64,000 nt of DNA. Source: Loxodes magnus. Its lineage: Eukaryota; Ciliophora; Karyorelictea; Loxodida; Loxodidae. Below are positions 8,743 to 52,985 of this stretch, piece by piece (within the stretch, counting starts at the first letter, position 1; each line of letters starts with the position of its first letter). Position numbers and translations under genes: made by a program. The notes beneath the pieces are model-generated. The model ran no database searches and was not told the origin of the DNA. It was given only the letters and a program-made list of their open reading frames with translations. Location: the NCBI GenBank assembly GCA_946699065.1, contig CAMPDV010002857.1, positions 1 to 64,000 on the forward strand. Reading direction: 5' to 3'.

Positions 8743-8859
8743 TTAATATAAATTTTAAAAGTTAAAAGTTTAAATAATTTAATTACAAACTAAAATTAAA
8801 ATTATTAATATCCTTTATATTTTGGCTATAGTAGGATGTATAAACTATATTTCTAGGTA

Positions 8860-15233: not shown

Positions 15234-15274
15234 TTAATATAATATAATTTTACAATTTGCAATAAGACACTCAT

Positions 15275-16013: not shown

Positions 16014-16070
16014 TAATTTAGAAATTTAAGTTATAGATATTTATTCTTTTAATAATATATAAAAGAATAA

Positions 16071-16882: not shown

Positions 16883-17035
16883 ACTTTAAGTATATTATAT
16901 TATTATATTAATAATATATTAAAATTAAAGAAATATAAAATTAAATTAAACTTTTATTTTAGTAAAACAATAAAATAATTTATTTATTAATCTTAAAATT
17001 TTATTTACATTTTTAACTTTTAAAATTTATATTAA

Positions 17036-23995: not shown

Positions 23996-24015
23996 AAAAT
24001 AAGTTTTGTATATCA

Positions 24016-25485: not shown

Positions 25486-25589
25486 TTAATATAAATTTTA
25501 AAAGTTAAAAGTTTAAATAATTTAATTACAAACTAAAATTAAAATTATTAATATCCTTTATATTTTGGCTATAGTAGGATGTATAACTA

Positions 25590-26235
25590 TATTTCTAGGT
25601 ATATTTAACTCACTTAAAATTAGGATAAAGGGAATTTAAGAAAATAAGCTAATTTTACTGAAATACAAATATTAAGATAGGAACTTTAGTCATTTAGCAA
25701 GAAATGTATATTTAATGTAAAATAAATTACTATTGACTGAAATATTTCGAATCCTCCTTCTGGTAATCTTTTATTTAACTTATAGTGAGATTAATAATTT
25801 TTTATTCATGGTTCACTTAATTATTTTGATTTTCCTGAGTTTGCAAAATTAAAATTAATAACAATATGGATACAATTTAGTTTTGATTCATTAAGATACT
25901 AAAAATAGTAAATTTTAAACTATTCTTATGCCTTTGATACGAATAAGCTTATCAAAATATAAGAAAATATTTCCTATATAAGGAAATAAAATATAAGGAT
26001 ATAGTCCATTAAATGACAACTGAGCCTATTTTTTATATCTGGTTATTAATCCAAATCATAAAAACTAAAAAAAACTTTAAAAAACTTGGTTCAGATAAAA
26101 GATGCCAATATATTTATTAGATACCTAAATAACACAAGGCTTCTGGTATAATATTTAAATGTTGCTTACTGCAAGTGGAACAAGCTTCTTTAACAAGAAA
26201 AAAAATGAATAGAAGCCAAAAGCTTAAATTAGAAT
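25590..26235 (-). CDS. Hypothetical membrane-associated protein, block 2 copy
   Basis: Near-identical copy of 8,860-9,530 with small indels. Same CSTCSKQYLNII-type segment, hydrophobic helix and PEGGFEIF motif. Unrecognised; start and stop unclear. Confidence 0.4.
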
Positions 26236-27768
26236 AAACTAGAGAATATTCTCAATATATGACTGAGATAATAGTATGAAATGATTTAAATAAGTCTAGT
26301 CTATTAAACTTTCTTAGAAAATCATTATAAATAATCTTGGTTTTTCTAAGAATAATATATTTATTATTATCATATCTTACATGCAATATAGGATTTAAAT
26401 AAAGAGTAGGTTTTAAGAAAACTTAAGAAATTATTTTAAATTCTGGTTGCTTTAAATTTAAACTTAGATATTATTAGATTATTTTTCTATTATTGCTCTA
26501 TATTTTAGTTTTAAAATTTATTTATATATTACATACTTAGAATTTAAAACTTAATCTATAATAATTTTAAGGTTTATAAAATATCTTAAAGCTTGCTTTT
26601 ATAGAAATCTATCAAATAAATTATTTTTTTATTTCTTAAAAGTTCCTTTCTCTTCACTAACTAATTTTAGCAAACAAGTTGCTTACTGTGATTCCAAATG
26701 TATATAGTAATATATTTTCGCCTTCTATTTAAGATATTTGATAAAAAGCTTTTCATTAGAATTAAGTACTTTTATACATTTTTTTCTTGTAGACTTATTC
26801 TATGTAAGTTATTCCAAAACCTGGTAAATTAATAAGAAAAATTTGGGATAACTAACTTCAAACTAAATCAAAATGCTAGATATTTATTGGCTTAATCTTA
26901 TCCTTATTTCTACCTTTGGTATTATCGTTCTTAAAGTGTATAATAATTTAATTTTTTATTAACGTGGAAATTAAATAATCATAAGCGTCAAATGATCAGA
27001 GTAAAAATATTAATTTAATAATTGATAATTCACACTAAAGCTTAGCATTATATATTTTTATTTATAATTTAGCAAGCATTGGATATGTTTAATAGTAGTA
27101 TTTATTAGTTATGCTTTAATTAAATATCAGATGCTTAATTAAATATATTGTAAATTTTAGCGGAAGAGAACAAGCTTAAATTCATAAAATGATTATTATA
27201 CATAATTTATTTTATTTTAAGTTGATATTAATAAGGTATTTTTACTTAAAGATATAAGCTTAATCCTTATATAAAAGAACTTTAAATTCAAAGTTTAAAG
27301 CTTATTAAACATTTAAGATATTCATACTAAATATTTTTATTTTTGCTTATTTAGCTTATTTTAAAGGATCACTTTTATTATTTTCAAAAATTAAATAGTT
27401 TAAGGATTTGATAGCAAAAAATTTATTATATCCCTTAATTTTAAATTATATCTGCTTCTGGAAAAAATTATTATGAGAAATTAATATTTTTTATAAAATT
27501 CTAAGCTTACTCTTTACTTTAGCCATCTTTATGTTTATCATTTATTTTAAAGGTTTTTAGTACTTTTTATTAATTTTAAGATTATTTATCTTTCTAGCTT
27601 TTATTAATAATTCTTCAACTTTAATATCATGATTCAGATTTAAAAAAACACATAATTTTAATTTAGCTTTCCTTATTATTGCTTCCCTTTACTCCTTTTT
27701 TTTAAAAAGAATTTATAATCAAATCCATTTATTAGTTACGCTAGGAGATTCTTTAAATTTTATATGTT
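26236..27768. other. Interior of block 2, no recognised gene
   Basis: Copy of 9,531-11,041; nothing recognised. Confidence 0.4.
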
Positions 27769-29920
27769 TCAAATAGTTTTTAAGTAATATTTTTCAAAGC
27801 TTTATGAAAATTACATTTCACAATATCTCTTTAAGCGAACATTTTTTAGATTCAATTGTTCTCCAACAAATCCCATAAGCAACTGTTTTAATTTTAGTTT
27901 TTTATTTAGTTCTTTACAAATCTAATAACCTCTTAACCCATTAAAATGATAGGATAAAACTTAATTCTAAATTATTAGATTTGAGACTATCTAAAAATTA
28001 TATAGGTTTGGATACTTCTTATCTAATTTTAGACTTTTACTTTTAAAAATTTCACTTTTTTCCTAAAATTATTTTAAATCCTGATAAATCAAAATAATTT
28101 TTTGTAAATTCTGCTTATTATCATTATTAGCCTTTTCTTTTATACATTTTTCTTATAAATTCTTTTGTAAATAATTTTTTATTCCTCCAACTATAATGAG
28201 AGGATCTAATATAACACTAAGATTAGCAACAGTTTCAGGAAGATTTAAATTACATTTGTTTCAATAATCATTCTTAATATCATATTTTCATATATCACTC
28301 AAATATTAATCATTTTAATTTACTCCTCCAAATGAATAAATATTTTCTTCTTTTTTATCAGTTACTAAAGTTTATTAGAATATTCCAAATGGAAATTAAG
28401 AACAGTATTATTTTTTATTCTAATTTCCTATCTTTAATTTTTCTACTGTATTTAAGTAATTACTATTATAGTTTTTCGAAGGTGAACAACAAGGTCATCT
28501 TCATCAGAGGTTGGGGAAGTTAAGTACCCATAATCGACTTTATGTCTTCCTCTGCTTTGGTTTGGCCTCGAGACATAAGATTCTTAGACCGTCGACGTTG
28601 GCTTGACTTGATTTCGTTTATTTTTAATACTGGAACAAAAAAGAAATAATATTGCGAGCTTCATCAGAGGTAGGTAATTTAAGTACCCATAATTGACACA
28701 TGTCGTCCTCTGCTTTGGTGATGCAATGAGACACAATCCTGCCATGTCCTTGGATTTCCAGCAAGTATTAAAGATTACGAGTATTCTAAAATTATATCAG
28801 TATTGAACATTTTTATCAGTACTGAATAATTATACCAGTATTGAACAAGGTTTATCAGTATCTGATAATTTTATCAGTAACAAACATTCTTGTCAGTATG
28901 AAACATTTTTTTTTTTAAAGAGCTGCGCACCAACGAGAGTGCTACGCGCTCTATAATCAAATTTATTTATTTATTATTATTACTAAAACCTCCAACTACA
29001 TAAATAAAGCTCTAAGCTGCTGCTATTCCGAAATCAACTCTTCCTTAGTTAAGTTCATTTAGTTTTCTACTATTTCCTTAAAATTCGAATTATCAAGTTT
29101 CTTTCAATCCTAACTCATTTTTTTCCTCCGACTAAGAATAATTAATTTTTATATTCAATACTTCTACTTAAAGAAGGAACTTTTACTTATATTTCTATAT
29201 TTTTTATTTATTCTGTTTGTATATTAAATAACAAAAGAAATTTAGTTTCTATTATGAATCAGTGAATATATTATGATTCCTTGTGAATATAATCTTTTTA
29301 TCTTGCTTATTTTATATCTTCCTAAATAATTTTTTAATCATCTTTCTTAGGTTTTAGTTATTTCTTCTGCTATAATTTTAGAATTTAAGTCTGTTAAGAT
29401 TTGGAAAGGATATTACTGAAGTCTCTGATAAGGTGAAATAATTTTGTCGTTTGAGTTTTTTATTTTGAATATTTGATCTTTGATGAGTTGAGTGAAAATC
29501 ATATTTGAGTTATTGTTCTCGTAAAAGTGCTTTATTAGAATTATATTATAATGTGTTATTTGAGTGAATTAGATTTAAAAGCTATTAGCTAATAATTTAT
29601 TATATTTTACTTATTTTATTTTACTTTTCTATTATTTAACTCTTCAGTTCCTTAAGTTTCTATTCTTATTGCTATCTTTTTATAATATATTCTTAATTCT
29701 ATTTCAGTATATTCACTCATTCATCGTTAATAAATAAATCTTCAAATTTGAATCTAAACATTTTATAGCAAATACAGCAACTCATTTAATCCTATAAATA
29801 CTTCTAAGTCTTTAGACATAAACTGCAGAAAGTATGTCCACAAGGTAAGAAAGTAGGAATAAGATTAGTTAAGTTAAAAGGATAGAAGCAACACTAGCAT
29901 AGTGAGATAGATTATATTTG
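27769..29920 (-). pseudogene. RING-coiled-coil-Kelch gene, block 2, interrupted by R1
   Basis: Cleaner frame than block 1. RING: ISLCQCCFYPF, FLPCGHTFCS and MSCCICYK. Then FEDLFINDEWVNILK, a Gln-rich coiled coil (QEQKLKELKSQIIEKQNKIS), a linker, and Kelch blades (LFLVGG, IYVVGG, IYSFGG, LSDIWKYD). R1 copy b (28,471-28,978) interrupts the Kelch domain at the same site as in block 1. C-terminal sequence after the blades (LDPLIIVGGIKN...) stays coherent to a candidate TGA at 27,769. An in-frame ATG exists at 30,043, but the residues before the RING look non-coding, so the true start is open. Likely ubiquitin-ligase type protein by domain; probably inactive because of R1. Confidence 0.7.
28471..28978 (+). 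mobile_element. R1 retroposon, copy b
   Basis: Same position and orientation as copy a. 3' hairpin at about 28,917-28,954 followed by the ATTT tail. Confidence 0.85.
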
Positions 29921-30499
29921 ATTATAAATAATTGATTAAAGGAGGTTTAAAAGGTATAATAATAACAGTTTAGATAAGAAATAAAATATTAGTATGATAA
30001 AGGAAATTTTATAATTTAAGTTTAAATATCTGCTATAAAACATATTTTCTATAAAGATTCTTATTTAAGAAGTATTTTGATATAATTTATATTAGTTTTT
30101 AATTAAAAGTTGTAAATGAAGTTTTTAATTTCCATAAGCTATACATTAAAAGAGGATTTAACTTAAAGATTGATTGAAATAAGGTATTTATAGTAGACTA
30201 ATATAGTTTAAAGTAAATAAATATAGTTATCTTATGAGAAATTTAAAAATATAAAATATAAAAATGAATGAAAGTTAAAAGAATAGTAAGTTATAATAAA
30301 TATTAGTATACAAATATTTTAAAATAAAATAATAATGTAAAATGTATGTGATATTCATAAATATAGTAAATATTCATAAAAATACATATAATTTTACTTT
30401 CTAAATATAAATTATTATTATAATATAAGAATTCTAAATAGTTAGCTTAAAGCCTAAAATAATTAATAAAACTAATAAAAACTGATTAAACTAAAATTA
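29921..30499. other. Upstream flank of the Kelch gene, block 2
   Basis: AT-rich. The junction at about 30,490 joins sequence equivalent to 13,765 directly to sequence equivalent to 14,470: a ~700-bp deletion, flanked by short aaattaact repeats, relative to block 1. Confidence 0.5.
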
Positions 30500-31269
30500 A
30501 CTAAAATTAACTACAATTATAAAATTATTTATCTTGTTCTTATAAATTTAAAAATTTGGTCAAAAAATAGTTTATAGGTAATAGATCTATTTATGATAGA
30601 AAATTATTTAAAAATAGCTGAAGAAATAAACAAAAGGAAATATAGAATTGTAGGATATTTTATTCTGTTTAGAATTTATTTATCTGCTTAGAAACTAAAT
30701 ATAAAAATTTATAGATTATATTTAAAATTATAATTTCTTAATATTCTATTTCATAATTAATTAAATAATTAAAAATAGTTTTGCAGTAGTTCATGACCGC
30801 TGTTCAAAGAAGTTTATAAATTTGTGAGAAGGTCGCTCTTGAATATCATAAAGTTTTCTTTTTTAAGTTCTGTTTAATATAATCATAGCAGTTGTTAATT
30901 TTCTTTTCTTCTATAGATTTATCTTTCTTGATTGCAATAAAGTTTGTTCTCTTTTTCTTTTTTCCTAGATTCAATAATGTTTTTTAAATTTTAAGAATTT
31001 TCACCAATTTCTATATAAATGTTATTAGCTACTACAGTAGTAGCAACGTTTCCTTTTCCTTATTTTCATTTTTCACTATTATTGTTAATTGTTTTCTTTT
31101 TTTATTTCCATTATTTTAAATTGGGAGTTAAGGTTTTAACTTTGAAGAATGATTTCAAGCTGTTAATTTTAGTTCTATATCCTTTAAACTTAGTTATTCG
31201 CCTATGGGGTACTTCCTATTACCAGAGTTTAAATCAGTTTCAGTTGGAGGATTGATCCTCCCTATTTAT
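30500..31269. mobile_element. Truncated inverted-terminus element with R2 tail
   Basis: Equivalent to 14,470-15,233. Keeps the R2 3' segment and the right terminus (tcagttggaggattgatcc, then TCCCTATTT) but has lost the left terminus and the R2 hairpin. A 78-codon standard-code ORF at 31,019-31,255 (MLLATTVVATFPFPYF..., very hydrophobic) overlaps the right terminus; it may be fortuitous. Confidence 0.6.
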
Positions 31270-31309
31270 TAATATAATATAATTTTACAATTTGTAATAA
31301 GACACTCAT

Positions 31310-32050
31310 ACTAATCTTTAGTACAGAAGCATTTAAAAAGAGTAAATAGTTTAATTTGCGGTAGTTAATAAGATAATCCAAAAGTTATTAAAATGATTTA
31401 AGATAGACAACGTGATGAAGAAATTAAATTTATCTCTTATTTAAAAGAAATTATGATGGAAAATACTAATTAAAAGAGAGATTAAATATAAATAACTTTT
31501 GAATATTTTGGCATAATAAATAGTTGATAATCAGATAAATAGTTTCATATATTTAGTATTAAGAAACTTTTAATTATAATTTTCAAGTATTAAATAAAAA
31601 ATTAAATTAATACATAAAATATCTTCCAAATTTTTAAATTCGAAGAAACCTTAGTGAGAAAATCCTTGAAATTAGATGCTTTAAAAGAGTAAAAAATCAG
31701 CGTAGATGTAAAAGAGTATATAAAAGTATATTAAAGTAAAAAAGAAATTAATTAAAGAATGAAATTAATTCCTATAAAAATAAAGAAAATTAGATAAAGA
31801 GGTAAATAAATAAAATTCACTTAATTGTTTAGGCAAGCAAAAAAAAAGAAGAAAATAAAATAAATATTGCTTGAAATAAATAAGGATAATTTGTTTATAC
31901 TTTACAAAATAAAATGCTACAAAAATAAAGAAAGAGAAACTAAATTTAAGATATTTTTACTGTTGAAAATATCAATAGTAGTATTAGAAGTTTAGTAGGA
32001 ATCATTTAATAAGTTTTTAAGCAAAATTTTATATAGTTATTTAATTTAAA
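31310..32050 (+). CDS. Hypothetical basic protein, block 2 copy
   Basis: Copy of 15,275-16,013, from ATG 31,394 (MIQDRQRDEEIKFISYLKEI). Indels near 31,555 and 31,640-31,810 shift the frame relative to block 1. Unrecognised. Confidence 0.35.
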
Positions 32051-32108
32051 ATAATTTAGAAATTTAAGTTATAGATATTTATTCTTTTAATAATATATAA
32101 AAGAATAA

Positions 32109-32921
32109 ATGGAATTTCATATCGGGCAACATCTTAGTAAAGGCGAGAAAAAGAAGGCTAAAAAAAAAGCTCTTCTTATTTAAAATTAAAAACAGCAGGC
32201 CACTGAGAACTCAAGCTCCTCATCTCCTTATTAAGGTAAGCGCATGGTTGGTGCTGAAACTTATGGAATTGACGCAGAACAAATAGGGTAACTTAAATCA
32301 GTTATCAAGAAACAAGAGGAAACTATTTATAACCTTTCGATTTAACTTAGAGAAATTTTAACCAACTATGATCAACTAAACAATGAAATAGATTAACTCA
32401 AGACTATATTGGTAAATAACAAGTAAATTACTAGATAATAAATTTGATCTTAATCTTAATAACCTCCATCATCAAGTGTAGCAATGCAGGTCGAAGTTGT
32501 ATAAGAAAACTAAATAATCTCTCAATCTGCAGTACAACAAGTTGAAGAAGGAAATAGAATTGAAACAATTTAAATGAAAACAAGAATTGATTAAATTGAA
32601 AGATTTTTGAATTTAAAAACTTAAACGAAAACCTAAAGAAAAAAATGCTTATTTTTTTAATCTCAAAATCACTTATTAAGAAAATGTTGAAACTTTTAAA
32701 TGCTCAAAAGAAATAATGAATAAAAAACATGAAAAGAGATCACAAGACTATTTATAACTAAAAATGGAGTTTATAAAAGAAAATTGTTCCAGTCAAAAGA
32801 TTCTGTGCATGAACTTTTAGGTTAAGCTTCCAACACAAAAAGCTTGTGGAATCCAACCACATAAAAAAATAGTGGTCATCGAAAGCAGGTTGCAAATCCT
32901 GTCAAAGATAAACACTTTTGA
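32109..32921 (+). CDS. Gag/ORF1-like protein, in-frame copy with damaged zinc knuckle
   Basis: ATG 32,109 to TGA 32,919-32,921, 813 bp = 270 residues. N-terminus MEFHIGQHLSKGEKKK, Ser-rich linker, coiled coil (EEGNRIETIQMKTRIDQIER), then CLFFQSQNHLLRKC. The second Cys of the CCHC knuckle, present in the 16-kb copy as TGT, is TTT (Phe) here. The C-terminus is basic and ends PVKDKHF. Known role of such proteins is binding and packaging of retroelement RNA. Coding evidence is good: internal TAA/TAG/TGA read through, a proper start and TGA stop, and length a multiple of three. The reverse transcriptase at 61.8 kb could belong to the same family, but that is not shown. Confidence 0.65.
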
Positions 32922-33072
32922 ACTTTAAGTATATTATATTATTATATTAATAATATATAAAATTAAAGAAATATAAAATTAAATTAAACTTTTATTCTAG
33001 TAAAACAATAAAATAATTTATTTATAATCTTAAAATTTTATTTACATTTTTAACTTTTAAAATTTATATTAA

Positions 33073-34014
33073 ATGGAATAGCTTTAGTGCTACAAGTGTA
33101 AGCAACTTTATGGCTTTTTAAATTACTCTCCTAAAACTCTAACGTACTCATGTTATTTGCCTTTATTGCTGCATTTAATCATAAATTTATATCAATCTTT
33201 TCATGTGTCCTTTAGATTTCCACATGTTTGAAGCATAGATTTTTAAAATAAAACCTGATGTGAATATTTTATAATTACTAACTATTAAATCCCAGAAAAC
33301 AGAATAAATAAATAAATAAATAAATAAATTTGATTATAGAACGCGTAGCACTCTCGTTGGTGCGCAGCTCTTTAAAAAAAAAATGTTTCATACTGACAAG
33401 AATGTTTGTTACTGATAAAATTATCAGATACTGATAAATCTTGTTCAATACTGGTATAATTATTCAGTACTGATAAAAATGTTCAATACTGATATAATTT
33501 TAGAATACTCGTAATCTTTAATACTTGCTGGAAATCCAAGGAAATGGCAGGATTGTGTCTCATTGCATCACCAAAGCAGAGGACGACATGTGTCAATTAA
33601 GGGTACTTAAATTCCCCACCTCTGATGAAGCTCGCAATATTATTTCTTTTTCGTTCCAGTATTAAAAATAAACGAAACCAGTGCCGAAGGTCTAAGAATC
33701 TTATGTCTCGAGGCCAAACCAAACAGAGGAAGACATAAAGTCGATTATGGGTACTTAACTTCCCCAACCTCTGATGAAGACGACCTTGTTGTTCACCTTC
33801 GAACAACTATGGCGGTTTTTAAATATATATATAATAAAATTAACTCTAAGATTAGTTTGCTAGAATCCAAAACTTAGTAATGGACAATAAAAATAATTTA
33901 TAGAGATATTGTAAGAGTTAAGTGATATAAACTATAATAGTAAATATAAAAGAATAAATGACTTAAAAGTTTAATTACTCTAAATAAATTAAATAGATTA
34001 AATATTAGGCAGGC
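33073..34014 (+). pseudogene. TRIM-like gene, right arm of block 2, truncated
   Basis: Equivalent of 17,036-17,457. RING start MEQLQCYKCKQLYG at ATG 33,073. Interrupted by R1 copy c (33,304-33,831) and cut off by the SINE and the block boundary, so the rest of the coiled coil and the C-terminal domain are missing. Confidence 0.75.
33304..33831 (-). mobile_element. R1 retroposon, copy c, with matched empty site
   Basis: In minus orientation, with (AAAT)n tail on the left (33,304-33,330), hairpin 33,338-33,372, and head ending ttcgaacaactatggcggt. Block 1 has the uninterrupted site at about 17,268-17,280 (cagaataataaaattaac). The flanking aataa/ataata bases suggest a short target duplication. 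This insertion postdates block duplication. Confidence 0.9.
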
Positions 34015-34321: not shown

Positions 34322-34410
34322 TAATTATTATTTAAAGGTAATTATCTCTCTAATTATACTTCCTTTGTATCTTTAATATAATATTTATAATTATTAATTA
34401 TATGAAAAAG

Positions 34411-34482
34411 TGCGCTATCCGGGACTCGAACCCGGGTCAACTGCTTGGAAGGCAGCTATCCTAACATCTGGACTAATAGCGC
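34411..34482 (-). tRNA. trnG-UCC: tRNA-Gly (TCC anticodon)
   Basis: Complete 72-nt cloverleaf on the minus strand: acceptor gcgctat/atagcgc, D stem gtcc/ggat, anticodon stem gctgc/gcagt around cttccaa (anticodon TCC), variable tgac, T stem ccggg/cccgg with loop ttcgagt, discriminator A. Reads GGA/GGG. The broken copy at 5,473-5,540 derives from the same gene. Confidence 0.95.
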
Positions 34483-36023: not shown

Positions 36024-38033
36024 TCAAAGTTTAGCAGTATAAGTAATTAGAAAAAGGGGAAGGCATAGATTATTCTCGTAAACGATATGCATTCCATGTC
36101 CGTTTGTGTAACTATCTTTACCTCCAAGCGACTCTTTGGTGTTATTAAAGCCTTATCCTGCTGTTGATTAATCACCTGTTATAACATCTACTAAGAGCAT
36201 TTAGCATTTCTAATCTTTAGAAAAATGAGTATAGCCTTAACAAAATTAAAAGCTCTCATGGAAATAAATTCCTTTACCATATAAACCTTGCTTTGCGAAT
36301 TCTATCTTTAGTCCAATTTTGTCTTAAATTATAAGAGAAGGATCATTTTATCTAGTACCGTGAAAGAGTAACTTTCTATCAACAGGTTTGCCTTACTTTT
36401 TGGTAAGTAAGTCTATATTAGCTCTAAATCTTATGTACTGATCATAATTGAGAATTCTTTAAATGGTTAGAACTTTTACTTAACTGGTTTTATTTATCAA
36501 TCTTAATATCTCATGCCAATCCGCGCTGTCTTCTTATAGAAATACAACATCAAAATTTCTTAATCTATTTATTTCTTGAAATCCTGGAATTTAGAATCCA
36601 CTAGCACTCTGCATTTTACTACATTAAAATATAGCACTGTGATTTTCTTAACAGTATGGACATATGTAAGCCTCACAAATTAAGCACTACTAGAACTTTA
36701 TTTTGCTTGAAAATTGATATTCAGATAAGTACTTATCTATAAACTATTTAGGTACTTTCATCTGTCCTTCTTAAATTGCCATTTATTCGGTTATCTATTC
36801 TATGAAATAAAACTTTAAATCAATTTCCTTTTGCTCTATATATTTGGTAAGAAGCTAAACGAACTTTTCTTTCTTAATGAAGTCTTAAAGGAAACCTTAA
36901 TAAAATACCAATTCTTTTGTTTTTTCATCATCGTACTGAGCTCATACCATAGCCTAGCAACTTTGCAATACTCCATATCCATTTTATAATAAAGACTTCA
37001 ACATGCTAGCTTGAAATTCAAGTATATTATATAAGTCTTCTATTTGAAGTTCTCTAAAATTACTTGACATATTTGCCTTATTTTAGTTAAGGAAAGACTC
37101 TTAATCACTAACAAGAATTACGCATTCTTTATTTTAGCATGTTTAGCAATTTATTATATTAAATCTATTTAACTTGGCTAAATCAACTTATTCTTTCCTG
37201 AATAATTCTTTTTCGCATTCTTTTTCTCCATTAGTTTTTTATTTGCATATACAGCAAAAGTTCTCTTTACATATAAAGCAGTAAAATTTCTTTTCATTTT
37301 AATCGAGTTCTTGTTCTCTTTTGCATTATCCACATTGGACTATTTTGATTGTCATATTTTTACTATTGATTTTATCTTATATTTATATGAACTACTAAGA
37401 TAATCTTCCTTTTTAAGCTATTATAGCTACTTCACTTTCTTTTAATAATTTCTAGCAAATTAAGCATTCTAGTGTGATATCTAGCTAAGACAACTTTTAA
37501 ATTAATCTTTAAATTAGAGGTTCGTAGCATGTTTTATGGCCACATTTTTCAGTATTATATATTTACTTATTCTAAAGTCACTTTCTACAATGCTAGCAAA
37601 ACTAATATTTTTGATTTATTTCTTAAATAGCTGAGTAGACAATCTGTTAATCTATTACTTGGTTACATTCACATTTAAATTTGCCATAAGGAATGTTACT
37701 TTATGGAATGGATTGCTGAGAAGGTAGTTCTTTTTTATAAGTTTCAAAGATGCAAAAAAGACAGTAGAAGTGATTACATCTCATCATGCTTACTATATTA
37801 TCTGGGTTCTCTTATAAATCTTCTATTCTTTTGCACCTTACACAGCTTTTTCAAATTTGTATATTTTTAAATTGAGCTGACTTTACTGTTATTTCCATAT
37901 TCGAGTTTTTCAAGTCTGCACAAATTTTATAAATCATCTACTACAAGTCAATTTTCCTCATTTGACTATCTAGTAGCTCTTTTTGCAAAATGTTGATTTA
38001 TTCATTCAAGCTTAAATTTGAAGAATTTTACAT
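36024..38033 (-). CDS. RBR-like RING protein with PARP catalytic domain
   Basis: ATG 38,033 to TGA 36,024-36,026, exactly 670 codons with no frameshift. Helical N-terminus; RING at residues 64-94 (CVRC, MRCNHFYCLFC) plus C121-E-C123; then further Cys/His pairs (CQHC, CGHKTC, CLIC, CGQC, CFIC, CCIC) like the in-between and second RING of RBR ligases; a region with CLICEAYICPYC; PARP domain from about residue 500 with LFHGTRQNDPS (H558), GLYGKGIYFH (Y590), LLVDVITGD and FLITY. The aligned third catalytic residue is Met648, not Glu, so mono-ADP-ribosylation is predicted. W61, W152 and W364 are TGA; TAA/TAG read Gln throughout. It would join ubiquitin and ADP-ribose chemistry in one protein, cytosolic or nuclear. 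The frame integrity makes this the most secure gene here. Confidence 0.88.
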
Positions 38034-41000
38034 TTTTTAATTGAGAAAAATAGCTAAAAATTATTTTAGAAACAAATTAATTAATTTAAAGCGTCTATCA
38101 CATAATAAGCACTTATCCTCTAATATTCAAGTCTATTAGTTAGCAGGATTGTATAAGTAAGAAATTTATATGTGAATTCTCAAGCAAATAATAAAAAAGA
38201 TTTTCCTTAATTGTTTCATTCTCGGAATTACTTCTTTGGATTTATTAATTTCATGTTATATTTTCATTCTAAATTTATACTTCCTTACTTTCGCATTAGA
38301 TGGCAGATATATTTTATTTTAGATACTTATGAATATATTTATTTAGAATGAAGCTTTTAGAAAATGCTTCCTTTGGAAAATTTCAAGAGTATTTTACTTT
38401 CAATTTGTTTTTATTAACTCCTTGAGCTTCTTATAATTAATATTTAATATTTATCTTATATTTTATAGATCATTCATACCTTTTTATTTTATACCTTTAG
38501 TCATTTTAAATTTTTTAGACAACTTTCTTTCAACTTAATTTAATATTCCTTTGTTTCTTATATTTTAAGCCTTTACTTTATAAGTTTATCAATTTGAAAT
38601 ATCTGATAATTTATTTATTTAGATATTTTCCTGAAATAAATTCTTTTTGCTTTAGTGAGAAAAATAAAGACATATTATTTCTCTTAGTCATATAAATAAA
38701 TTTAATATCTTCGTTAAATAAAAAAGAAGTGTATTTAGCAATATATTCTATTAATTTAATTTTTCTTCTATTTCTTATCATTTAGGTTTTACTGTTTTTT
38801 AGACTTTTTAGATTTTACTTATTTGCCTAAAACTAATTTAAGTTATAGGCATTTTTAATATTCTTTGCACAGAGATAAAGATACTCTTTACAAGCATTAA
38901 ATTTCTATTTGATGAAATTAATTAAAATTTAATCAAATATAATAAAAAACGTAAGAATCTCTACATCCGTTAAATCTATTTGAGTAGCTAAAGTAACTTA
39001 TTTGAACTAGAAATACTAAAAAATTAAATTTAATAAAAGAACTTTTCTTTCTAAATGCTAGGCAAAAAACTTTTTCTTTAAAAAGACACCAAATCATAGA
39101 ATCGTAGGTAAGATTCTAAAATTAATTTAAAAAATAATACAAATTTTTTTGATATAAAATGAGATAAAAAACAGGTTAAATTATGAAAATAGATATCAGC
39201 AGCAATAATAATTAGCAGCTAAACTAACTGGTAATTTCTAAATTTATTAAATAATAAGCATATCTTATTCTAATCATTTGATAGATATTTTATAAGCATG
39301 CATAAATTAATAAATTATAATTGCTAAATTAATTAAATAAGCTTTAGATTTTATTCATGTATTGCTAGCTCTAAATAAGAAAATTCTCTTGCAAATTTTT
39401 TTATATATCCTTTTTATTTTAATGGAATATATAATTAATTTATGTATAAAGCAAACAAAAAGAAATATGACAAATATATTAGCCATAGCTTTTACCCTAC
39501 TTATTTAGACCTCTTTTTTATTATAGATATATGATTTTAAAAAAGCCAAAATTATTATTTTGCTTTTGATGATTTATTTTAGCTATTTTACTCAAAAATC
39601 ATAATGCTTTAATTAAATAAAAATGTATTATCATTTTAATATTATAATAATTATTTTAATATTTTTATTAATCCTAAAATAACAAATAGAAGCAAAATAA
39701 ATTACATTTTTTATTATATAATCCTTGCTATCTGTGAATAAGCGCCTTAGATACTAACTGAGCAAGATAATTCTTTTAAAAAATCAAGATATCTAATCAA
39801 AGCAAAGTAAAAATTTGAAATTAAATAAAATCTGCATAAAAGAAAGAGAAAATCGATGATAAACGTTTTCAAAACAACATATTTTAAATTTTTTTAATTT
39901 ATGAGTAGGCTATAATTTCTTTATTCTTAATAATGAATTTATAAATTTTATTTTTTGTTTAATTTTAAAATAATATTTTACTCAAACTAAACTATTTTTA
40001 TTTATTTATTTATTTTTTTAAAGTTTTTTAATTAATTTTATCTTTTAATTTTTTAATTTTTATTATTTTTAAATGTTTTAATAAAAAATAATATACCTAA
40101 AACTTCAATTTTACATTTTTAATACCTTTAAATTCAGAAAATCGACTAATTTTATTTATATTATTAGTATAAAATGTTATAATTTATTTCCTTTTTAAAT
40201 CTTTTTTTATATGGAGATTATTTTATTATATTTTATTTAATAAATTTATTATTTTAAATACATTTTTTTTCTATCTATTATATTTTAACTATTTTAATTT
40301 TTTTTTCTTCTTCTTATTCTTTTCTTCGTTAAAAAATTAATGTTTTTACGTTTAATCATAATTATTAGAATTTTTGTATTTAAATTTATTTTATTATTTT
40401 ACTTTTTTATATTTTAGCTTTTTATTAATTTATTGATACTCAATTTTATTATTTTATACATTAAATATATATCTTTTAATAAAAATTGTCTTTTGCTATT
40501 TTAATGAAATTTAATTGCATGTTAATTTACTTTTTCTTTTAATTTCTATTGAAAATATATTTTATTGTTTTTATATATTTTTTAATATTTATTTATGTAA
40601 AATTTAGTTTTCTTATTAATGTACTGATACTGCAAATTAATTTATCTGATTTATAAAATTGTTTATATTTTTACTTATTAAACTTTTTAAAATCTTCTAA
40701 TTTTATGTGATTTAAATTAAAATTAATTCCTTCTTTTCTTTATCTATTAGATTTTTTATTTATATAGATAATTAAATATGGAACCGAAGAGAAATAGTAA
40801 AAGGAGTTAAACTTCAAGTTATTATTTTTTTATTGCTCCCTTTAGATTGTTTTATGAGATATTGTGCCTATTTAATTATTCCTGAAAGATGAGTCTTCGC
40901 AATAAAGACTATTGGAATATAATATTTCGTAATTTCTTCTTTTGGATTGCAGAGTAAAAGGTGGCTCTGCCCTGCCTAAATATTAGGTAAAGAAGATCAA

Positions 41001-43532
41001 TCCTCAAACATAGCTTCTTGTAATTATATTTTTTTACTATCTAACTTCCTAAAATCCAAAATCCTGAGCTTTTAGCATAAATAATATTTTTCATAAAGTT
41101 AAAGTAGTAAAATAAAAAATACTTAAAATAAAGTAAAAATAATAAAAATGATGAAAATAAACAATTTAAAATACTAAAATATCTATAATAATTATAAAAA
41201 TTAAAATTAAATATAAATATTAAAAATACCTAATTTTATAATATAAAAATTAATAAAATTAATAAAATTAATACAAAAATATATTAAAAATAATTATACA
41301 AAATTAGTTAATAAAATATTAGCAATTATTAAAAAAATCCTATTTAATATGCTAAAAACAAAGGGAAAATAAAAAGCATAAGTACTATTAATGAAAAATT
41401 CTTCACATATTAATATATTAATAAAAATTATAAAAATTATCATTAATATTTATAATAAAAATATAAATATTCTACAACAATAAAAAAATAAAGTTTTAAA
41501 TTAATTAATTTTTTAAATTAATTAAAAGAAATTTAGAAAGATAATTTATATTTTAAATAATGTAAAGCCAACAATAATAATAAAATGTTTATATTAATTA
41601 TTTTAATTAATTAATATAATAATAATTTTTTATATAGATATATAATAAACATTTAATCTATTATAATAATTATAATCCTTATTAATATGGTTATTATAAA
41701 ATAATTTTTAATTACAAAAATAAAAAATATTTAACTTTTTAGTAGCTTGATGATGAATGATCTATATGAAGAAAATAAATGAAACTAAAATTAATTTAAA
41801 TCAAATAATATTAATTTAAATCAAAAGCACGAAGAAAAGGTGATTTTATTATGTTTATTTATATCTCTTAGTATATGACATGTTAGCAATTTCTAAATAT
41901 TTTATAATTGTTTATTTTTTACTTTTATTACTATACAATTCAAATCCCAACAGAGATTATATTCTTAAATGAGATTTATTTACTTTAATAATAATATAAA
42001 TTAAATAAAGGATAAAAATATAAAGAAAGAGAGAAATTAGATTGAATTATAGTAAAGAATTAGCATAGAATAATTATTATATAAGCTAAAAATTAAATTT
42101 ATTTATATTAAATGGAATAGCTTTAGTGCTATTCTAATTAGATACTAATTACTTTTATATAATAGATGAACAATCTTATCTTTCTTCTCTAGTGGAATTA
42201 TATTTATATCCACTTAGCATAGAATTAACTTACAAATGATTTCTTTATAAACTTTAAGTAAACTAAATTAAAAATAAGAAATTATCTTATTCAACTATAG
42301 ATATTAAAGTTTATTATTAGCTAGAAATAGAATATTTAGAACAAAATCCATATAAAATAAATAGAAAATGTTAAAGTCATAACTAGTCAAAGTTAAAAGC
42401 AGCGACTAGAAGCGAGTAAGATAAAATTAAAATTAGCAAACTGATTATATAAGTTAAACTGTAATATTTATACTCTATAGATAGATTTAATAGTTATAAT
42501 AGTTATTTTTTATCTATAAAATATAAAGTGATAGCTCAGCTTTTAAAAACATTTAATTTAATAGAAAGATTTAATATAATATAGAATATTCTTAGTTATA
42601 AATAAACTATTAATAAGTAATTTATAGCAAAAACTTATTTTTGTATTACACTTTATCTTTAATTAAAGTTGAGTTTACTTGTCTTTAGAAAATTAAGGCT
42701 TTTCTATAAATTTTTTATTTTAGCAAACTTAAATTTAATTTTAAATGGCTATTCATTTAAAAAAGGATTGATAGTTAACTTAGAAACTGAATCAAAGATT
42801 TTAATTTATTAATTTAATAGTCTCTAATATCGTCTCAATAAAAAAGGCTGAAGATTAAATTAGTTTACAAACAAGCAACTATGTCTTTTGTTTAATAATT
42901 TGTGAGATAAACATAACTTACTAAGCTTTTTTAATCATATAAATTGCCAAATCCTTTTGATATGACCTAAAGTATTAAATAAATAAATGAAGCAAAAACT
43001 TTAAATCTAAATTAATTTATATAATTTAGGCATTAATTCTCATTTTATATACCTTATAGAGTAATTATTTCTGAAATTTATAAGATTGTAAAAATAATAA
43101 AAACTAAAATATGAGTAAAATATACGTAAAGGTTGCTTATTTCTATTCAATTTTCACATTTAGATATTTAGATATTTAGATATTTAGATATTTATTTTTG
43201 AAATTTATAATCTTTGATGTAAAGCCAAGATAATAAATATACTAATTTGGTAAATCAAAAAGCTCAACTTTCTAGCATCTGCATAAAATGATACTAAGCA
43301 GGGTTAATAAAAATATGTTAATAGGCTATAATAAGAATGATTTATAAATTAACAAACTAGTGCTGTTTAGTTTAATAGATGATTGTTTATTTTATAAATG
43401 GCAATTTCTAGAATAATTTATAGTATAAGTTAATGTTTATCTTGCAACTAAGTTATAATGATGATTCTTTTATAAAGATTATAAAATTATGAAATAATTG
43501 CTTTATAAACTATTTTTCTCTTTATCTTTATA
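38034..43532. other. 5.5-kb AT-rich intergenic region
   Basis: Very AT-rich low-complexity DNA, most extreme at 39,600-41,750. A fragment at 42,105-42,134 (attaaatggaatagctttag...) matches the first codons of the TRIM-like genes and nothing beyond, a stub of that family. A 10-bp tandem repeat (atatttagat, about 4 units) lies at 43,160-43,193. No other gene seen. The first few hundred bases and the last hundred should hold promoters of the flanking PARP genes. Confidence 0.5.
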
Positions 43533-46502
43533 ATGAATCAAGACTGAATTTCAGAATATGGTCTTAATAATATTAGATAAAAGCTAAATTTATCTGAACT
43601 TAAAAGTGAACAGTTGGCGGAATTTAGCTTATAAGAAACAGAAGATCTTTCAGAGACTTTGAAATTAAGTAATCAAGAAAAAGTCTAGCTGCTAGAAACT
43701 TGACGGAAAAAAGACTGATGAAGTAAAATAAAATAGTTTAAACTAGAACGAATATAGGAATAATTGCTAAAGCTGTTTCCTTGTGAAAGTTCTTTCATAA
43801 ATCTAAATTTAGATTAGGTCATAAAAATATTTTCTGATAATTAGATTCAGTTAATAGGAACTGAAATTAATAAAATAAAGCTAGCTCATAACAAATTGCG
43901 AGAATATTAACAGTTAGTTAATTCATCTTAGCAAGAAAATTAAAAGGAGAACTAAGCTGTACTATAAAATACTAACTAACAAGAAAATATAATGTTTCCC
44001 TAATAAAAGCAGAGCGAATAAATTTAAAACGAATAATTATCGCAACAGATCTAACTATTAGATTTAAATATTGTTCACTAAGATTCCAATTAGATTGAAG
44101 AGATAAAAAAGATATAATTCGATAATTATTAATTTCCCATATATAAATTGTGATTAAAGAAATAGAAAAAAAAAATTAAAAAAAAAGTTAAAAAAAAAAT
44201 TAAAAATTAAAATTAAAAAAGATTTAATAGAGGTATAAGGAACTTAGCTTTAAATCAATTAATTTATACAAAAATTTGATAAGTTAATTTCAAAAATAGA
44301 AACTGAATAAATTTAGTTAAGCTAAGATTCTTTATAGAAGTTTCAATAAATATATCTATGCAAATAAGAGTAAAAAAATAAGTATGAGAAATTAAGAAAT
44401 GATTATCCATTCTGTGCATTTTAAATTTTGAATTAATCTCTTTAAATTGAAGGAGTTTCTGAGAATAAAGAACAAGCGAAATAAAAAATAAAGAATGATT
44501 TCGAAGTATTAACATAATTTGTTATATCCATAGAATAGCAAAAGTTTCAATGTATATAAAATATTTAGAAATTGAATAGGCAATTTTTAACTTTATTTCA
44601 GAACTAGGATATAATTTCCTATAAATTTGGCGAAGATTAAATTTATATTAAAGCATATAGCAAGAATACTTAAATTAACTTGTAAAATCAAATAAATACA
44701 TTAGTTTAGTAGATAAAGCTTGAGGAGAAAAAAATAGAGATCTATAGTATTTCAGAGCTCTAATATTATAAAAGCGAAGTAGGTTAGCAAGATCTTTAAA
44801 CTTTAAGTTAAGTTAATGAAATCCAATTAACTTTATATGTAAAAGTGAAATCCAATAAATTTAAGCCATAATCATTATAAACTTAATAACCTAATCTTTC
44901 CTATGAGTGGTAATGAAAAAATGATTTTGGGAAATGAACTTCTTATCCAAAAATTGTATAGCAAAAAATTGAGGAAAGTTATGCTTAGAACTAAATACAG
45001 AAATGCTTAATCATAGTACCTTCTGATGAAGACAGTTAGTAAAAATATCTTTAATTAGATTTTATAGCTTAAAAATAAACTAATAATTAAACTTAGTTTA
45101 AAAGAGACATAAGAAGAATGGAAAGCAATTTTCAAGCACAGCAATCTATTAAATCTTATGATTGACAATGACTAGATGATTAAAAATAATGAAATTCATA
45201 TGATTAAGCAAGTTAACTTGAAATAGAAGAAGCTTTCTAAAAGGATAACAAAAGTAAAATGTGGATTAGCCTAGTTTCAAATAATACAAAATAGCCAATT
45301 AAATATAAAATTAATTTTGTTAAGATGGTCTAGAAAAAATATAAAAACAAAGTTTGAAAGGCCTTTGCAAAGAGTAGTATTAAGTAACTCTTAAACATCA
45401 TAAGCTGAAAACTAGTGACTCTGGATAGAAGACTCTACTTATAAAGCTTTTGACACCCAAATAAATAATTAGATAGACTAAGCTTTTTAATAAGGATAAG
45501 AAAAAAATCTATATTAAAATGAACTTCGTTAAATATGAAGTAGATTTAGTTAAAAACAACTTATATAATATATATATCAATGAAGTGATGAAAATAGTTA
45601 AAAACATAGATATAAAAACCAAATAGGTTATATAATCCTAAAGGGATTATTAGAAGATATAGAGTTAAGCACTATAAAATTTTAGGAATTCTAGAGTTGT
45701 AAATAAGTTACTGTAGACAATTTTGAAAAAGCACTCGATATTGCTAAGTAGCATAATGTGCTTTTAATTTTCAAGGATAATGAATTTTTCCTTTTGGGAT
45801 ATACGAGTGAAGTATAGAAGGCTAAGGAAAAGTTGACAATCATTAATTATGGTATTTGAAATAATGCAAATCAGTTAGAAGTAAAGTATCCTGAATATTG
45901 AGAGTAATCATAATAGCTTTATTGCTAATATGATTTAAGCTAAAATTCAAAATTGTTTAGACAAATTTAGACACAATTTCAATAAAACTGTTCCACAAGG
46001 TAAAGTTGTAAGAATATCTGTCATTTAAAATAAGGCCCCTATACTAAAGATATTGAAACGAGTTATAAATTTTTAAAAAATATATATGGAAAGAATCCAA
46101 GAGTAGAACATTTATATCATGGAACTAAAGGAACACCTCCAGAAGAAATATGTAAAGGAGAAATAGGAATTGATAATAAATATACATTGGAAAAAAAGCA
46201 TTTATGGAAAAGGCAATTATTTTGCTATTGAGAAGCTTCTTATTCTAATAATGGTTACGCTTACAAGGTACCAAACCAAAATATTTAATACTAGATGATT
46301 CTGTGTGACGTTATTGTTGGAGAAGTTTTCTAAGCTTAAAATTAGCAAAAATATTAATATCCTCCTATTAATACTAACTTCACTAGTTTTGAAAAGCGAT
46401 ATGACTCAATAACTAACAAAACTTTAGATGTATATAGTATTCGAAAATGAAAGGGCTTATCCTTCGTTTATCATTACTTATAACTTTGCTAAAACACCTT
46501 GA
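43533..46502 (+). CDS. SAM-WWE-PARP protein, probably frameshifted
   Basis: ATG 43,533 (MNQDWISEYGLNNIRQ) to TGA 46,500-46,502, about 990 codons. An N-terminal SAM-like helical domain (residues ~5-50) is homologous to the repeats of the 49-50.8 kb gene. Coiled and Lys-rich linker; KH- or RRM-like stretches; WWE domain 1 at 44,905-44,990 (SYEWQWKNDFGKW...IEESY), WWE 2 at 45,155-45,240 (YDWQWLDDQKQW...IEEAF), a possible third near 45,420; PARP domain from ~45,990 with HLYHGTKGTPPEE, YGKGNYFA, MILCDVIVGEVF and AYPSFIITYNFAKTP. Most WWE Trp codons are TGA. WWE domains bind ADP-ribose units, so this resembles macro-less PARP14/PARP11-like proteins. Single-base shifts lie near 44,160-44,330, 46,190, 46,235 and 46,430: either decay or consensus error. 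Confidence 0.82.
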
Positions 46503-49326
46503 AAATATACTTTATTTTCTTATTAATCAGTAAATTTTATAGTAAATGTATAATTATATAAACTAAAGGAATATAAATAAATATAAAATGATAAAACATT
46601 TAACTTAAATTGCTATATAACAAACATTATATAGTTCAACTTCTCATCAATAAACAGCAAATTCTTTATTTAAACATACTCAAAATTTATTTTTAAATGT
46701 CTGATAATAAAATAACGAGAATTATATATTTTTAGACTTATAAAAAGAAATAAATTATACATAGCTATTGAAGATTACACTACAACAAGCAAAAGTTTTA
46801 AACTTCCTTACTTATGTAAACTAAATAAACAATAGATATAATAAAATGTATTATTTGCTAATAAAGCGTTATTAATTTTTAGTTTTCTTTAAAGAAAAGT
46901 TTAACAATATGAAATGATTATTTCAAAATAAATTCCTACTCTACCCAATATTTTTAATAATTATAACTACACTTTAAAGAATCTATTTAAAACAAAATTT
47001 AGCAAGCAAAGCGAAGAAACTAAGTTGAATAAGTATACAATAAATAAATTTTTTTAATTATGAAGATAGAAATTATTTTCAACAAAGGGCTTAGCAGTAA
47101 TTATAAATTCCTATTGAATATGTCAGTCTAATTGAATAAGTATTATTAAGATTTAACTAAGTTTAAGTTTTACTATTATTTCTCTTTTTACTTATTAATT
47201 CTTAAGCTTTAATTAAAAGTTCTTAATTTATTAATAAAAAGGAACTATAAAGGTTAAAAGATTCTATTATGCTTGATACTTAAAACATCTCAACGACAAA
47301 ATATTTGACTTATAATTTACGTAATCCTTTAAAGAATAGATGTAGTCTAAGTTATTTAGAATTAATATAGTAAATTTAATAGCGAAAATTATGATTTTGT
47401 TTGCTTAAAAAGTTGATTTAACAAGCTTTTATATTCCACATAATTAAAATATTTCTCTTCCTAATTTTTATCCTTTTAGATTTAAATAAATGATGGATAA
47501 GTATTATAATAATTCCATATGCTTGAAATCTAAATTTATTATATTAAAATATAGAGAAATCTCATTTTAAAAGACTTTAGTAGTTAGCACTTTAATAAGT
47601 TATATAAATTTTAAAATGATGCTATATATCTACTTCTGAAATAGGTCTTATAGATTCTAAAAATTATTTAATTTAAAAATTATTTTTAATTTATATTCAG
47701 GTGATGAAATAGAATCGCTTTTATCATTTATAGAGTTCAACTCAAATTTTAGAAGTATAGATTAAAAAATTTATTTTGATTTAGATATAAAATATTATAA
47801 ATTTTCAATTTTATTATTCCTTTTTTATTTCTAACTAAGTAGCATAATGAAAGATATATAATAATAATAATCATTTTTATTTAATTATTTTAGCTTTTTT
47901 TGTATATAAATTAATTTATCAACTTTAAAATAAGCTTTCAAAGATAATTTTAAATTTTAGAATTAATTTATTAAACTTAGTGAGTTCCACAAGAGTTCCT
48001 TATTTAAAATTATTTATTTGATGAATAGATTTAAATGGAGATTTAAGCTTTATACAACCAATTTTGATTAATTAATAATTTTAAATCTAAAGAGAAATAA
48101 TATTTATCATCTTTTAAATATTTGCCAAATCTTATGTTTTTCCTATTTGTTAAATAATATTTATTTATTTATTTATTTTAAAATTACAAATAACTTGATA
48201 TTACTATATTTGCAAATACCTTTGGATAAAAATTATTAAAGGTTTTAAATTACTCTTTCATATATAAAGTTTATTTAGAGGAGAGAATTCTTAATAGATA
48301 TAGCCTTTACAGTAGATAAGAAAGTTTATATTTAATTAGCCTCATTATGCCTTACATTTTTATTATTTTTTAAAATCTTAAGTTTCATTGTTTTAGTAAT
48401 TAAATATTCTATTTTTCTCCTAAATTAATACATTCTTAATAAAGTCTAAACTAAATATAATTTCTTAAACAGATCTATTAATAAATATTTTCATGGATGA
48501 AATTATAGGTGAAACACTTCTAAACTTTATTTTTGATTGAACTTCAATGTAGATAAAAGCAGAAACTATAAAGGAAGATTAGCAAATCTGCTTTTCAAAC
48601 TGTAACTAATTTAAATTGAATGTCTAAGTATTATCTTTAGTTATATAAGCAAACATAAAAAGTTAATTTACATTCAGTTGAATTCATGGTATTTGAAAAT
48701 CCCACCAAGATAAATTAATTTTTGTTTTTAAAAGTGGAGACTAAAAGTTTAAATTAATGCATTGAAATAAGTTATATCAATAGGATTTAAATTAGATATA
48801 TAATACATTTTTTTTAATTTTATCAACTAAAATTTATTATTACATTTCTTAATAAATTCATTTAAAATGCTAACACTCATTAATACTTTAAGTGGGTTTA
48901 ACTGGTCAATTTCATTGTCTGTGATATGAAAATAAAGAAAAGTAGAAAATTTAAGAGATAGCTAGGTTTATTTTAAGAGGTGATGCAAATATCTTTGCTA
49001 GCTACAATTTTTTAACTAAGTTTATTTTATTATTTTTAAGTTTTTGTTTGCTCGTTATCATTGCTATAAATATTACAATTGAGCAAGCAAATAATTAAGT
49101 CTCTAAACTTTACTTATAAACTTTAAAGAAATTTAATTTATTATTTTTTGTTTTTTTATGCATGAATATTTGATTTTAAAATAAAATAAAAATTATGGAG
49201 TCATAAGAGTATTAATAGATAATCTTTTTAGAATATAAAATAGAGAAATTGTAACAATTGATTTGATATTGCTAAGAACCAATTATTAAGAATCAAATTT
49301 ATAATTTTTATAAATGTTAAGTTATT
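46503..49326. other. Intergenic region between PARP and SAM genes
   Basis: AT-rich. No domain, tRNA or repeat match noticed on either strand. Confidence 0.4.
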
Positions 49327-50807
49327 TCAAGCTTTTTCTTGTCTTGATCTTTAACTTACTTTGTCCAAAAACTCCATATTCTCAGAATTTACTTAGATAT
49401 CCTCTTCTTAAAAATCGTATTGAGATTCCAAATTCTTAAGTTTATTTTGAAATATATTGAACTTTTCTTGATCGAATGCTTGGAGTTCAAATACGATATA
49501 TTGCTTATTATATAAATTACTCTTTAGAATATTTTTATTTTATAAAAGTTGTTTGAATTGTTTTTTGTTCTTTTAGTTGGTCAAACTTTTCCTTTTCTAT
49601 TCTAGTTTGAAAATATTTTACCGTTTAATAAGAATCTTCTATTTTAGACTTTGCTTAATTTAAATTATTAGAAGTTCCTTCGATTTATAATTAGTCTTAT
49701 CGAAATTTTAAAAGAACAGCCTTAAAAGTCTTTTTATATATTTTTTGAAACCTAAACTTTACTAAGTTTTCAGATAGATACTTTCTTTCGAAGGATGAAA
49801 GAGATTCTTGACTTAGCTTTAGTTCTTCTTTTTTTTAAGCTTAAGTTTAATCTTTCAAATGATCTCTTAAATTTATTTATAGAACTTCTTTATCCCTACA
49901 TCTCTATATAATTGCAGTTAAAGATCAACTTATTCTAAATCAGATATTTTTTCCCATTAATTTTCTTAAAGTCATTAATAGTAAAATTTGATATTTGTAG
50001 TTCTCAAATTATATCCTTTATTTTTCGCTATAATAATAATCAAAGATAGTTTGTTATTTCGTTAAGTGTTTCTATTCCCCTTCATCTTCTTAATTTTGTT
50101 AAGTAAAATCATTTTCCAATTTTACTTCTTAGGAATTTTGGATGTTTTCGTTATTTTAAACTATACTAGTGACTTAAAACATTTTAAGGTATGTTTTCTT
50201 AATATTTTGTATTAGTAAGTTACTTTCGAACTTATTATAGTTGTTGAATTTAACTCAAAGTTAGTTCCATTAACTCAAATAGCTCTTATAGTTCTTGCTC
50301 ACTATAACTAACTAATTGTTCAGCTGTAATTCCACTATTTTCTAACTGGTTTCTAATATTATTTAAAATTGCTTTTTGAAATTCAATCTAAGGACTCTAC
50401 TTTTTGAGTATTTTTGCTTTAACTTTAATTTAAAATTAGTAACTAATTTAGCTTGTTCTAGCTATTAAATCTAGCTAGGATTTAATTCCATTAGTTCATA
50501 TAAATCAGATAATTCTTACTCCGTATAACTTACTAAATTTTCTTCTGTCATGCCACAATTTTCTAATTAGGTCCTAATATTGTTTAAGTTATAATGAGAT
50601 ATTCAATCACTATCTAGTTTTCCTTTTCAAACTTTGCTTAACTTAATTTATCTACTATATTTAGCTTTAATTCAGTTCCATTAGTTCAAAAAGGTCTAAT
50701 AGATCTTGCTCTTTATGATTTATTAACTATTCATCAGTCAGACCACAACTTTCTAACTATTTTCTCATACTATTAAGATTAAATTTCTGAATTCAATCTT
50801 CTTACAT
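49327..50807 (-). CDS. Triple SAM-like repeat, coiled-coil protein
   Basis: ATG 50,807 (MQEDWIQKFNLNSMRKQLES) and likely TGA 49,327-49,329 (after SRQEKA). Three tandem ~60-residue repeats share (D)WI...LN.(I/M)R.QLE..G(L/M/I)T.E.L....EQ.L..L.ELMEL..SQIQQ, a helical pattern with a leading Trp that fits SAM domains. The leading Trp is TGA in all three repeats. The same module opens the SAM-WWE-PARP gene 3 kb away, transcribed towards this one (convergent). The rest is Lys/Glu-rich coiled coil (RIEKEKFDQLKEQK, IVFELQAFDQEKF). SAM domains polymerise, so the two proteins may co-assemble (inference). Length 1,481 bp is not a multiple of three; shifts occur in the C-terminal half. Confidence 0.7.
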
Positions 50808-52154: not shown

Positions 52155-52985
52155 AAAATAAAAAAATATTTATTTTTTATTTTAGGATATATCTCACTAA
52201 GTTTGAATAAAAATGGAAGAAAATTATCTTTCATTTATAAGTTAAACCTATAACAAATTTTAGTCAATAATAAAATAAAAAAGAATCTACAATTTACACT
52301 AAAAAACTCAAGGGTTTTAATATATTTTGACTTGGGTATTATGGTTAAAAAATCTCGAAAGCTATTAAAGTTAAATAATATTTAAAGAAAAAGTATATAA
52401 ATTTTATAAAATAACTATCTTTCTTTATTAAATTAGTATTTTTATTTAAAAAGGATATAAAAATTAATTTTAAATCATATACTAAAAGTTTAAAGAGAGA
52501 TTCTATATAGTAGTCACATAATGTATAAGGGAAATATAACTTAATGTAAGGAGTCTAATAAAATTATGTATTATTTGCTATTATAAATTGAGAATATTAG
52601 CATCAATATGATTAAGACTTATAAATACATTAGTCTAATAGATTTTATATCTTTCAGAGTTTGGACTTCTCTTTAAATTGATATTTAGAATATTAATAAT
52701 CAAACATTTTTATATATTTAAGCAAAGCTTAAGCATAAATATAAGGCTCTATGGTGTAAGGGTAGCACGTGGGTCTACGGAGCCCTAAAATTGGGGTTAA
52801 AAATCCCTGTAGAGTGGCTTTTTATTAATGTTTATAAAAATGTAGGTTAGTGAATTAAATAAGGAAAAGAGTGATTATAATATCAGTATCCATAGCTAAA
52901 TAGATCATATTATAAGTAAATACTCTCTAAATTATAAATAGAAATTATACTAAATTAGATGCTCTAATATATTTACAATTTGAAT
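52155..52985 (+). repeat. tRNA-Arg-bearing duplicated segment, copy B
   Basis: Partner of 5,665-6,500, with substitutions and indels. Duplication of a tRNA neighbourhood without its flanking tRNA-Thr and Gly. Confidence 0.9.
52745..52817 (+). pseudogene. Degenerate tRNA-Arg copy
   Basis: Copy of 6,248-6,318. The anticodon stem has C to T and an extra T after gccc, the T loop is ttaaaaat (too long and missing the TTC), and the acceptor end reads tagagtgg, losing the outer pair. The cloverleaf no longer forms well, so I call it a pseudogene. Confidence 0.8.

Follow-up and report, generated by a model that had tools for sequence, protein, structure and literature searches.

The window, i.e. the whole 64-kb stretch of DNA that was analysed, is contig C2857 of the assembly used for the genome-wide searches, which comprises 705,730,643 bp in 7,843 contigs. 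By base counts, its GC content is 22.8%. The region of interest contains a minus-strand gene with a PARP domain, a plus-strand gene or gene relic with two WWE domains, and a group of three minus-strand repeats, with the following features:

36,024-38,033, minus strand: PARP-domain gene, 670 codons including the stop, ending ...TYTAKL-TGA
36,024-36,026, minus strand: TGA as stop of the PARP-domain gene
43,533-46,502, plus strand: WWE gene or gene relic, ending ...FAKTP-TGA
43,545-43,547, plus strand: TGA as Trp of MNQDW, close to the beginning of the WWE gene
44,908-45,117, plus strand: WWE domain 1, with TGA at 44,914 and 44,935, in both Trp columns
45,160-45,354, plus strand: WWE domain 2, with TGA at 45,163, 45,169 and 45,190; the profile match proper covers 45,175-45,354
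46,500-46,502, plus strand: TGA as stop after FAKTP
50,383-50,385, minus strand: TGA as leading Trp of repeat 3 (LDW)
50,603-50,605, minus strand: TGA as leading Trp of repeat 2 (SDW)
50,793-50,795, minus strand: TGA as leading Trp of repeat 1 (EDW)

The PARP-domain gene contains 55 TAA or TAG codons as well as internal TGA codons at residues 61, 152 and 364, and it matches the Pfam family PARP with an E-value of 2e-11. This confirms the initial annotation, which had described a gene of 670 codons with many internal TAA/TAG and three internal TGA codons, and places it on the minus strand. The antisense frame of this gene is equally open, so that the evidence for the gene is the domain match and not the length of its frame. 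For the same reason, open frames under NCBI table 27, the code described for Loxodes in which UGA is the sole stop and also encodes Trp (PMC11441545), were rejected as evidence altogether: no frame ever closes under this code and frame length therefore proves nothing.

Under the standard code, the stop-to-stop frames in the window all fall short of 150 aa, and reading TGA alone as Trp does not produce a single frame of 200 aa. Reading TAA and TAG as Gln yields 51 frames with a length of 250 aa or more. Many of these overlap one another on opposite strands, and long frames under table 6 were rejected as evidence on this ground. The absence of standard-code frames of 150 aa fits the earlier statement that gene finders using this code will miss nearly every gene here. 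Such programs recover almost nothing from DNA of this kind, and a gene finder built for table 27 is already in print (PMC11441545).

The plus-strand gene matches Pfam WWE over two stretches (4.3e-14). All five TGA codons to which Trp residues of the WWE domains had initially been ascribed are present, and they lie in one frame. When the TGA codons of this domain pair were scanned with 20 residues, Trp scored 60.1 bits as compared with 44.2 bits for Phe, 42.7 bits for Tyr and 36.8 bits for an unknown residue. The first part of the gene (43,533-44,072) is SAM-like by eye only and matched no Pfam family, and the PARP-like character of its end was likewise assigned by eye, with no Pfam match for 45,272-46,228 in one frame. 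Between 46,100 and 46,502, the gene shifts frame three times by eye, leaving no space for an intron. Given the three frame changes and the missing Pfam match, this WWE copy may be decayed or may contain assembly errors. A simple gene model stopped short of the FAKTP end and bridged two of the frame changes with putative introns; it was not relied on in this part.

The three minus-strand repeats start with EDw, SDw and LDw (w being TGA) at 50,801, 50,611 and 50,391, each in another frame. They had been described as a SAM gene in which TGA is the leading Trp of every repeat. The TGA indeed leads all three repeats, whereas the SAM label is weak: repeat 1 matches SAM_2 with an E-value of 0.015, short of the family cut-off, and repeat 2 has no SAM match in Pfam.

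The genome of this ciliate is rich in WWE domains, several of which often lie side by side; a profile search of the whole genome gave 101 matches over many contigs. The meaning of TGA was examined in a sample of 60 regions, consisting of the 20 best matches and 40 regions chosen to favour TGA, some of which contained several matches or overlapped the first 20. The profile was built from 17 TGA-free sequences, and TGA was masked as X. The resulting 86 domains include those of the window and duplicates, and 63 of them remain below 80% identity. In line with the check proposed in the initial annotation, TGA favours the columns in which Trp is conserved: the 47 TGA codons in match columns coincide with a mean Trp frequency of 0.447, compared to 0.029 when columns were drawn at random from the same rows (reached in 0 of 2000 draws). 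After removal of redundancy at 80%, the respective values for 31 TGA codons are 0.522 and 0.030 (0 of 2000 draws). The control codon TGG gave a column Trp frequency of 0.79, and the codons TGT, TGC, AGA, CGA, GGA, TTA, TCA, CAA and CAG, as well as TAA and TAG, gave 0.00-0.02. The Trp-rich columns 4 and 11 take 30 of the 47 TGA codons, the other 17 being located at positions in which Trp does not predominate. Column 2, which has the most conserved Trp, contains TGG in 47 of 47 cases, which is partly an alignment-edge effect of masking TGA. Within genes, TGA encodes Trp.

TAA and TAG encode Gln. In the first of two eRF1 genes found in the genome, the Gln codon of the GGQ motif is TAA, and further glutamines aligned to human ones are encoded by TAA or TAG. 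A scan for Gln in the WWE pair of the window was rejected as evidence, as it is circular: the seed had been read with TAA and TAG as Gln, and Gly (61.5) even scored above Gln (60.1). At the level of tRNAs, a loose tRNA-Gln pattern matched 364 places in the genome and none in the reversed control. ARAGORN, applied to 30 loci cut from these matches, reported 25 tRNAs with anticodon UUA, 5 tRNA-Gln(UUG) and one tRNA-Ala. Based on the standard code, the program labels the UUA tRNA as "Stop"; its body is close to that of tRNA-Gln(UUG), which suggests that it carries Gln. Both TAA and TAG would be read by this abundant UUA tRNA with a Gln-type body. One contig contains a tandem series of tRNAs with the UUA anticodon in units of about 275 bp (C214:232597-237603).

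At the ends of genes, TGA serves as the stop. All nine histone H4 genes found end with ...GFGG-TGA, and the 40 bases that follow have a GC content of 10-23%. The two eRF1 genes, which are located about 35 kb apart on contig C196 and are 95.7% identical, are complete single frames without internal TGA, and both end with TGA. The best match to eRF1_1 (locus L105) was rejected as eRF1, since its sequence looks like Pelota/Dom34. In the window, the five protein ends listed in the initial annotation lead to eight matching gene ends, each of which is followed by TGA. This applies to FFIAFD at three of three places, to KDKHF at two of two and to FAKTP at its only place. For TAKL and KYDC, the claim holds at one place each, with TGA next at 36,027 (one of three places) and 58,153 (one of two), the remaining occurrences being other contexts. 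As these ends had been chosen by the reader who proposed them, they cannot serve as independent proof, which is provided by the nine H4 genes.

Domain columns and conserved proteins show the meanings of the codons, and TGA is found at the ends of known proteins. Since each of these meanings is backed from outside the window, the code is table 27, and the initial assignment to this table is upheld by the WWE columns, by eRF1 and by histone H4. The genome shares with the karyorelict code of Loxodes and Parduczia the reading of TAA and TAG as Gln, TGA as Trp internally and TGA as the stop at the ends examined; the AT-rich sequence behind the H4 stops also matches table 27 systems, and no difference was found. 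The window is almost certainly nuclear DNA of the karyorelict ciliate Loxodes magnus, and the earlier suggestion of a Loxodes-like organism is supported by the same code having been published for Loxodes (PMC11441545). The macronuclear assembly of L. magnus described there has 706 Mbp and is repeat-rich, a feature it has in common with the present sequence in addition to table 27. In a code in which every codon is potentially sense, the end of a gene is set by context, which challenges the textbook notion of a dedicated stop.

For the terminal TGA, such a context is suggested by comparison with other ciliates. Nearness to the poly(A) tail has been proposed to decide between stop and sense in Condylostoma and Parduczia (PMC4967479), and coding UGA is reported to be depleted right before the stop in L. 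magnus, the 3' UTRs of which are short (PMC11441545). By analogy, a terminal TGA would be taken by eRF1, which ends translation, and it would probably act as a stop through its closeness to the poly(A) tail behind a short 3' UTR. Distance to the poly(A) tail would then decide between stop and sense. Both eRF1 proteins differ from human eRF1 by E55A, T58R, S60Q and S70A and by the change of YxCxxxF into FxCxxxF, so that several sites of stop recognition are altered, and the NIKS motif is kept. Position 70 is the site that is changed to Gly in Blastocrithidia (PMC12153298), and single eRF1 changes have been described as not tracking code changes (PMC4967479). The same source describes selenocysteine as an additional, third meaning that UGA has in Condylostoma and Parduczia.

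As to the reading of internal TGA, a tRNA-Trp pattern allowing anticodon CCA or UCA matched 165 places in the genome and none in the reversed control. The anticodon is CCA in all of the 100 matches listed, and the loci fetched were typed by ARAGORN as tRNA-Trp(CCA). With respect to the tRNAs for which a search had initially been advised, UUA was found as expected, no CUA anticodon occurs among 100 listed of the 364 loose tRNA-Gln matches, and the tRNA-Trp listed has CCA instead of UCA. Exact searches revealed 124 tRNA-Trp(CCA) genes with a short anticodon stem, in which position 27:43 is U.C or A.C, versus 3 normal genes with a U-A pair, all three of which are located on contig C110. In the short-stem form, 28-31 pair with 39-42 as usual, leaving an anticodon stem of 4 bp below the unpaired 27:43. 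These counts cover 127 of the 165 loose matches, about 38 not being among those typed, and about 10 of the 124 short-stem genes lie outside the stretches fetched. Most copies are found in two dense arrays, which together account for 113 of the 124 copies:

C67:482318-491186: dense tRNA-Trp(CCA) array, 48 copies with a unit length of about 187 bp, 27:43 = A.C
C148:155459-173027: dense tRNA-Trp(CCA) array, 65 copies mostly in 241-bp units, 27:43 = U.C; one separate copy on the same contig also has U.C

Read-through of UGA in reporters increases when tRNA-Trp(CCA) has a short stem, as described for the tRNAs of Blastocrithidia and Condylostoma (PMC13092985), and the short-stem form has already been noted in Loxodes (PMC13092985, PMC12005148). 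The combination of a CCA anticodon with a broken top pair is shared by Blastocrithidia, Condylostoma, Blepharisma, Loxodes and Amoebophrya (PMC13092985, PMC12005148, PMC12153298). In Amoebophrya, U and C are unpaired at the same place under another numbering; there, one of seven copies is reported to have the short stem, in contrast to the 124 versus 3 copies found here, which lie mostly in dense arrays and include A.C as a second type of mismatch. By analogy with these systems, internal TGA is most likely read as Trp by tRNA-Trp(CCA) with the broken 27:43 pair and four remaining pairs, and this short-stem tRNA would be the one that reads UGA in the L. magnus cell. The alternative is a cognate tRNA-Trp(UCA) that reads UGA, with the short-stem CCA genes being incidental. 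Cognate suppressor tRNAs are described as the commonest solution elsewhere (PMC13092985), and such a gene could be among the about 38 matches outside the typed set. This alternative is nevertheless unlikely, as the pattern admitted UCA and the 100 matches listed of the 165 are all CCA.

An increased dosage of tRNA-Trp was considered with tRNA-Thr as a control. The window itself contains the following tRNA genes:

5131-5204: tRNA-Thr(UGU)
5473-5540: tRNA match by Rfam only, 40 bits
6248-6318: tRNA-Arg(ACG)
34410-34482: tRNA-Gly(UCC)
52745-52818: tRNA-Arg(ACG)

With a tRNA-Thr query from the window, 163 matches were obtained genome-wide, which are mostly dispersed among the 100 listed. Another contig contains a loose series of ten tRNA-Thr genes with a spacing of about 2.6 kb (C336:99773-123526). 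Since the total of tRNA-Trp is not raised beside tRNA-Thr, dosage gives no support, and a special dosage of tRNA-Trp was rejected on the basis of tRNA-Thr and the loose tRNA-Gln pattern, a comparison that covers these families only and uses patterns of different strictness. What remains beyond dosage are the dense arrays and the ratio of 124:3. Two kinds of mismatch, U.C and A.C with a common C43, break the pair, and this would be consistent with the broken state as such being selected. The tRNA-Trp set could have been almost wholly converted to the short-stem, UGA-reading form. In that case, this form would carry Trp by default to both UGG and UGA, with the few normal copies as relics or specialists; this reading is a tentative one, and we rate it slightly short of an even chance. 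The census allows the idea that a broken top pair enables CCA to read UGA to be tested in an organism in which the short-stem form is nearly the sole one seen.

As a whole, the data are best explained by a table 27 code of the L. magnus type, in which UUA tRNA-Gln reads TAA and TAG, short-stem tRNA-Trp most likely reads UGA and termination probably depends on nearness to the poly(A) tail, and we consider this explanation very probably correct. The Condylostoma magnum code (table 28; PMC4967479) shares with it that all 64 codons can be sense and that termination depends on position. The meanings inside genes would be identical under this code, in which TAA and TAG are also usable as stops. The abstract of a 2022 karyorelict study reportedly allows for a small minority of UAA stops, which would be in favour of such a code. 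In contrast, the conserved ends are TGA in 11 of 11 cases (nine of nine for H4 and two of two for eRF1), with TAA or TAG in none, a small sample in which rare TAA/TAG ends could be missed. A code of the Condylostoma type is very improbable here. Least credible of all is table 6 with TAA and TAG as Gln and TGA as stop only, for which the depletion of TGA in coding frames relative to the DNA around them (log-odds -0.95), the frame breaks of the 43.5-46.5 kb gene and the size of most Loxodes introns, at most 25 bp (PMC11441545), could be cited, but the internal TGA codons would then lie in introns or pseudogenes or be errors, none of which would favour the Trp columns that TGA occupies in many WWE domains, and TGA as Trp outscores every other reading of the WWE pair of the window.

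The dual-meaning code, its taxon, the matching gene finder and the short-stem tRNA-Trp of Loxodes are already published, and the tRNA census is a modest new detail on a known code. The term "tRNA" is absent from the main text of PMC11441545, and neither the tandem arrays nor the 124:3 ratio turned up in the literature searched, with supplements and eLife RP93502 lying outside that search.

Apart from its genes, the window contains a large segmental duplication in pieces, with 7224-17276 and 23972-33312 being about 96-98% identical. A repeat of about 500 bp is present in both orientations at 11746-12261, 28468-28981, 33307-33818 and 62408-62905, with an identity of 90-95%.
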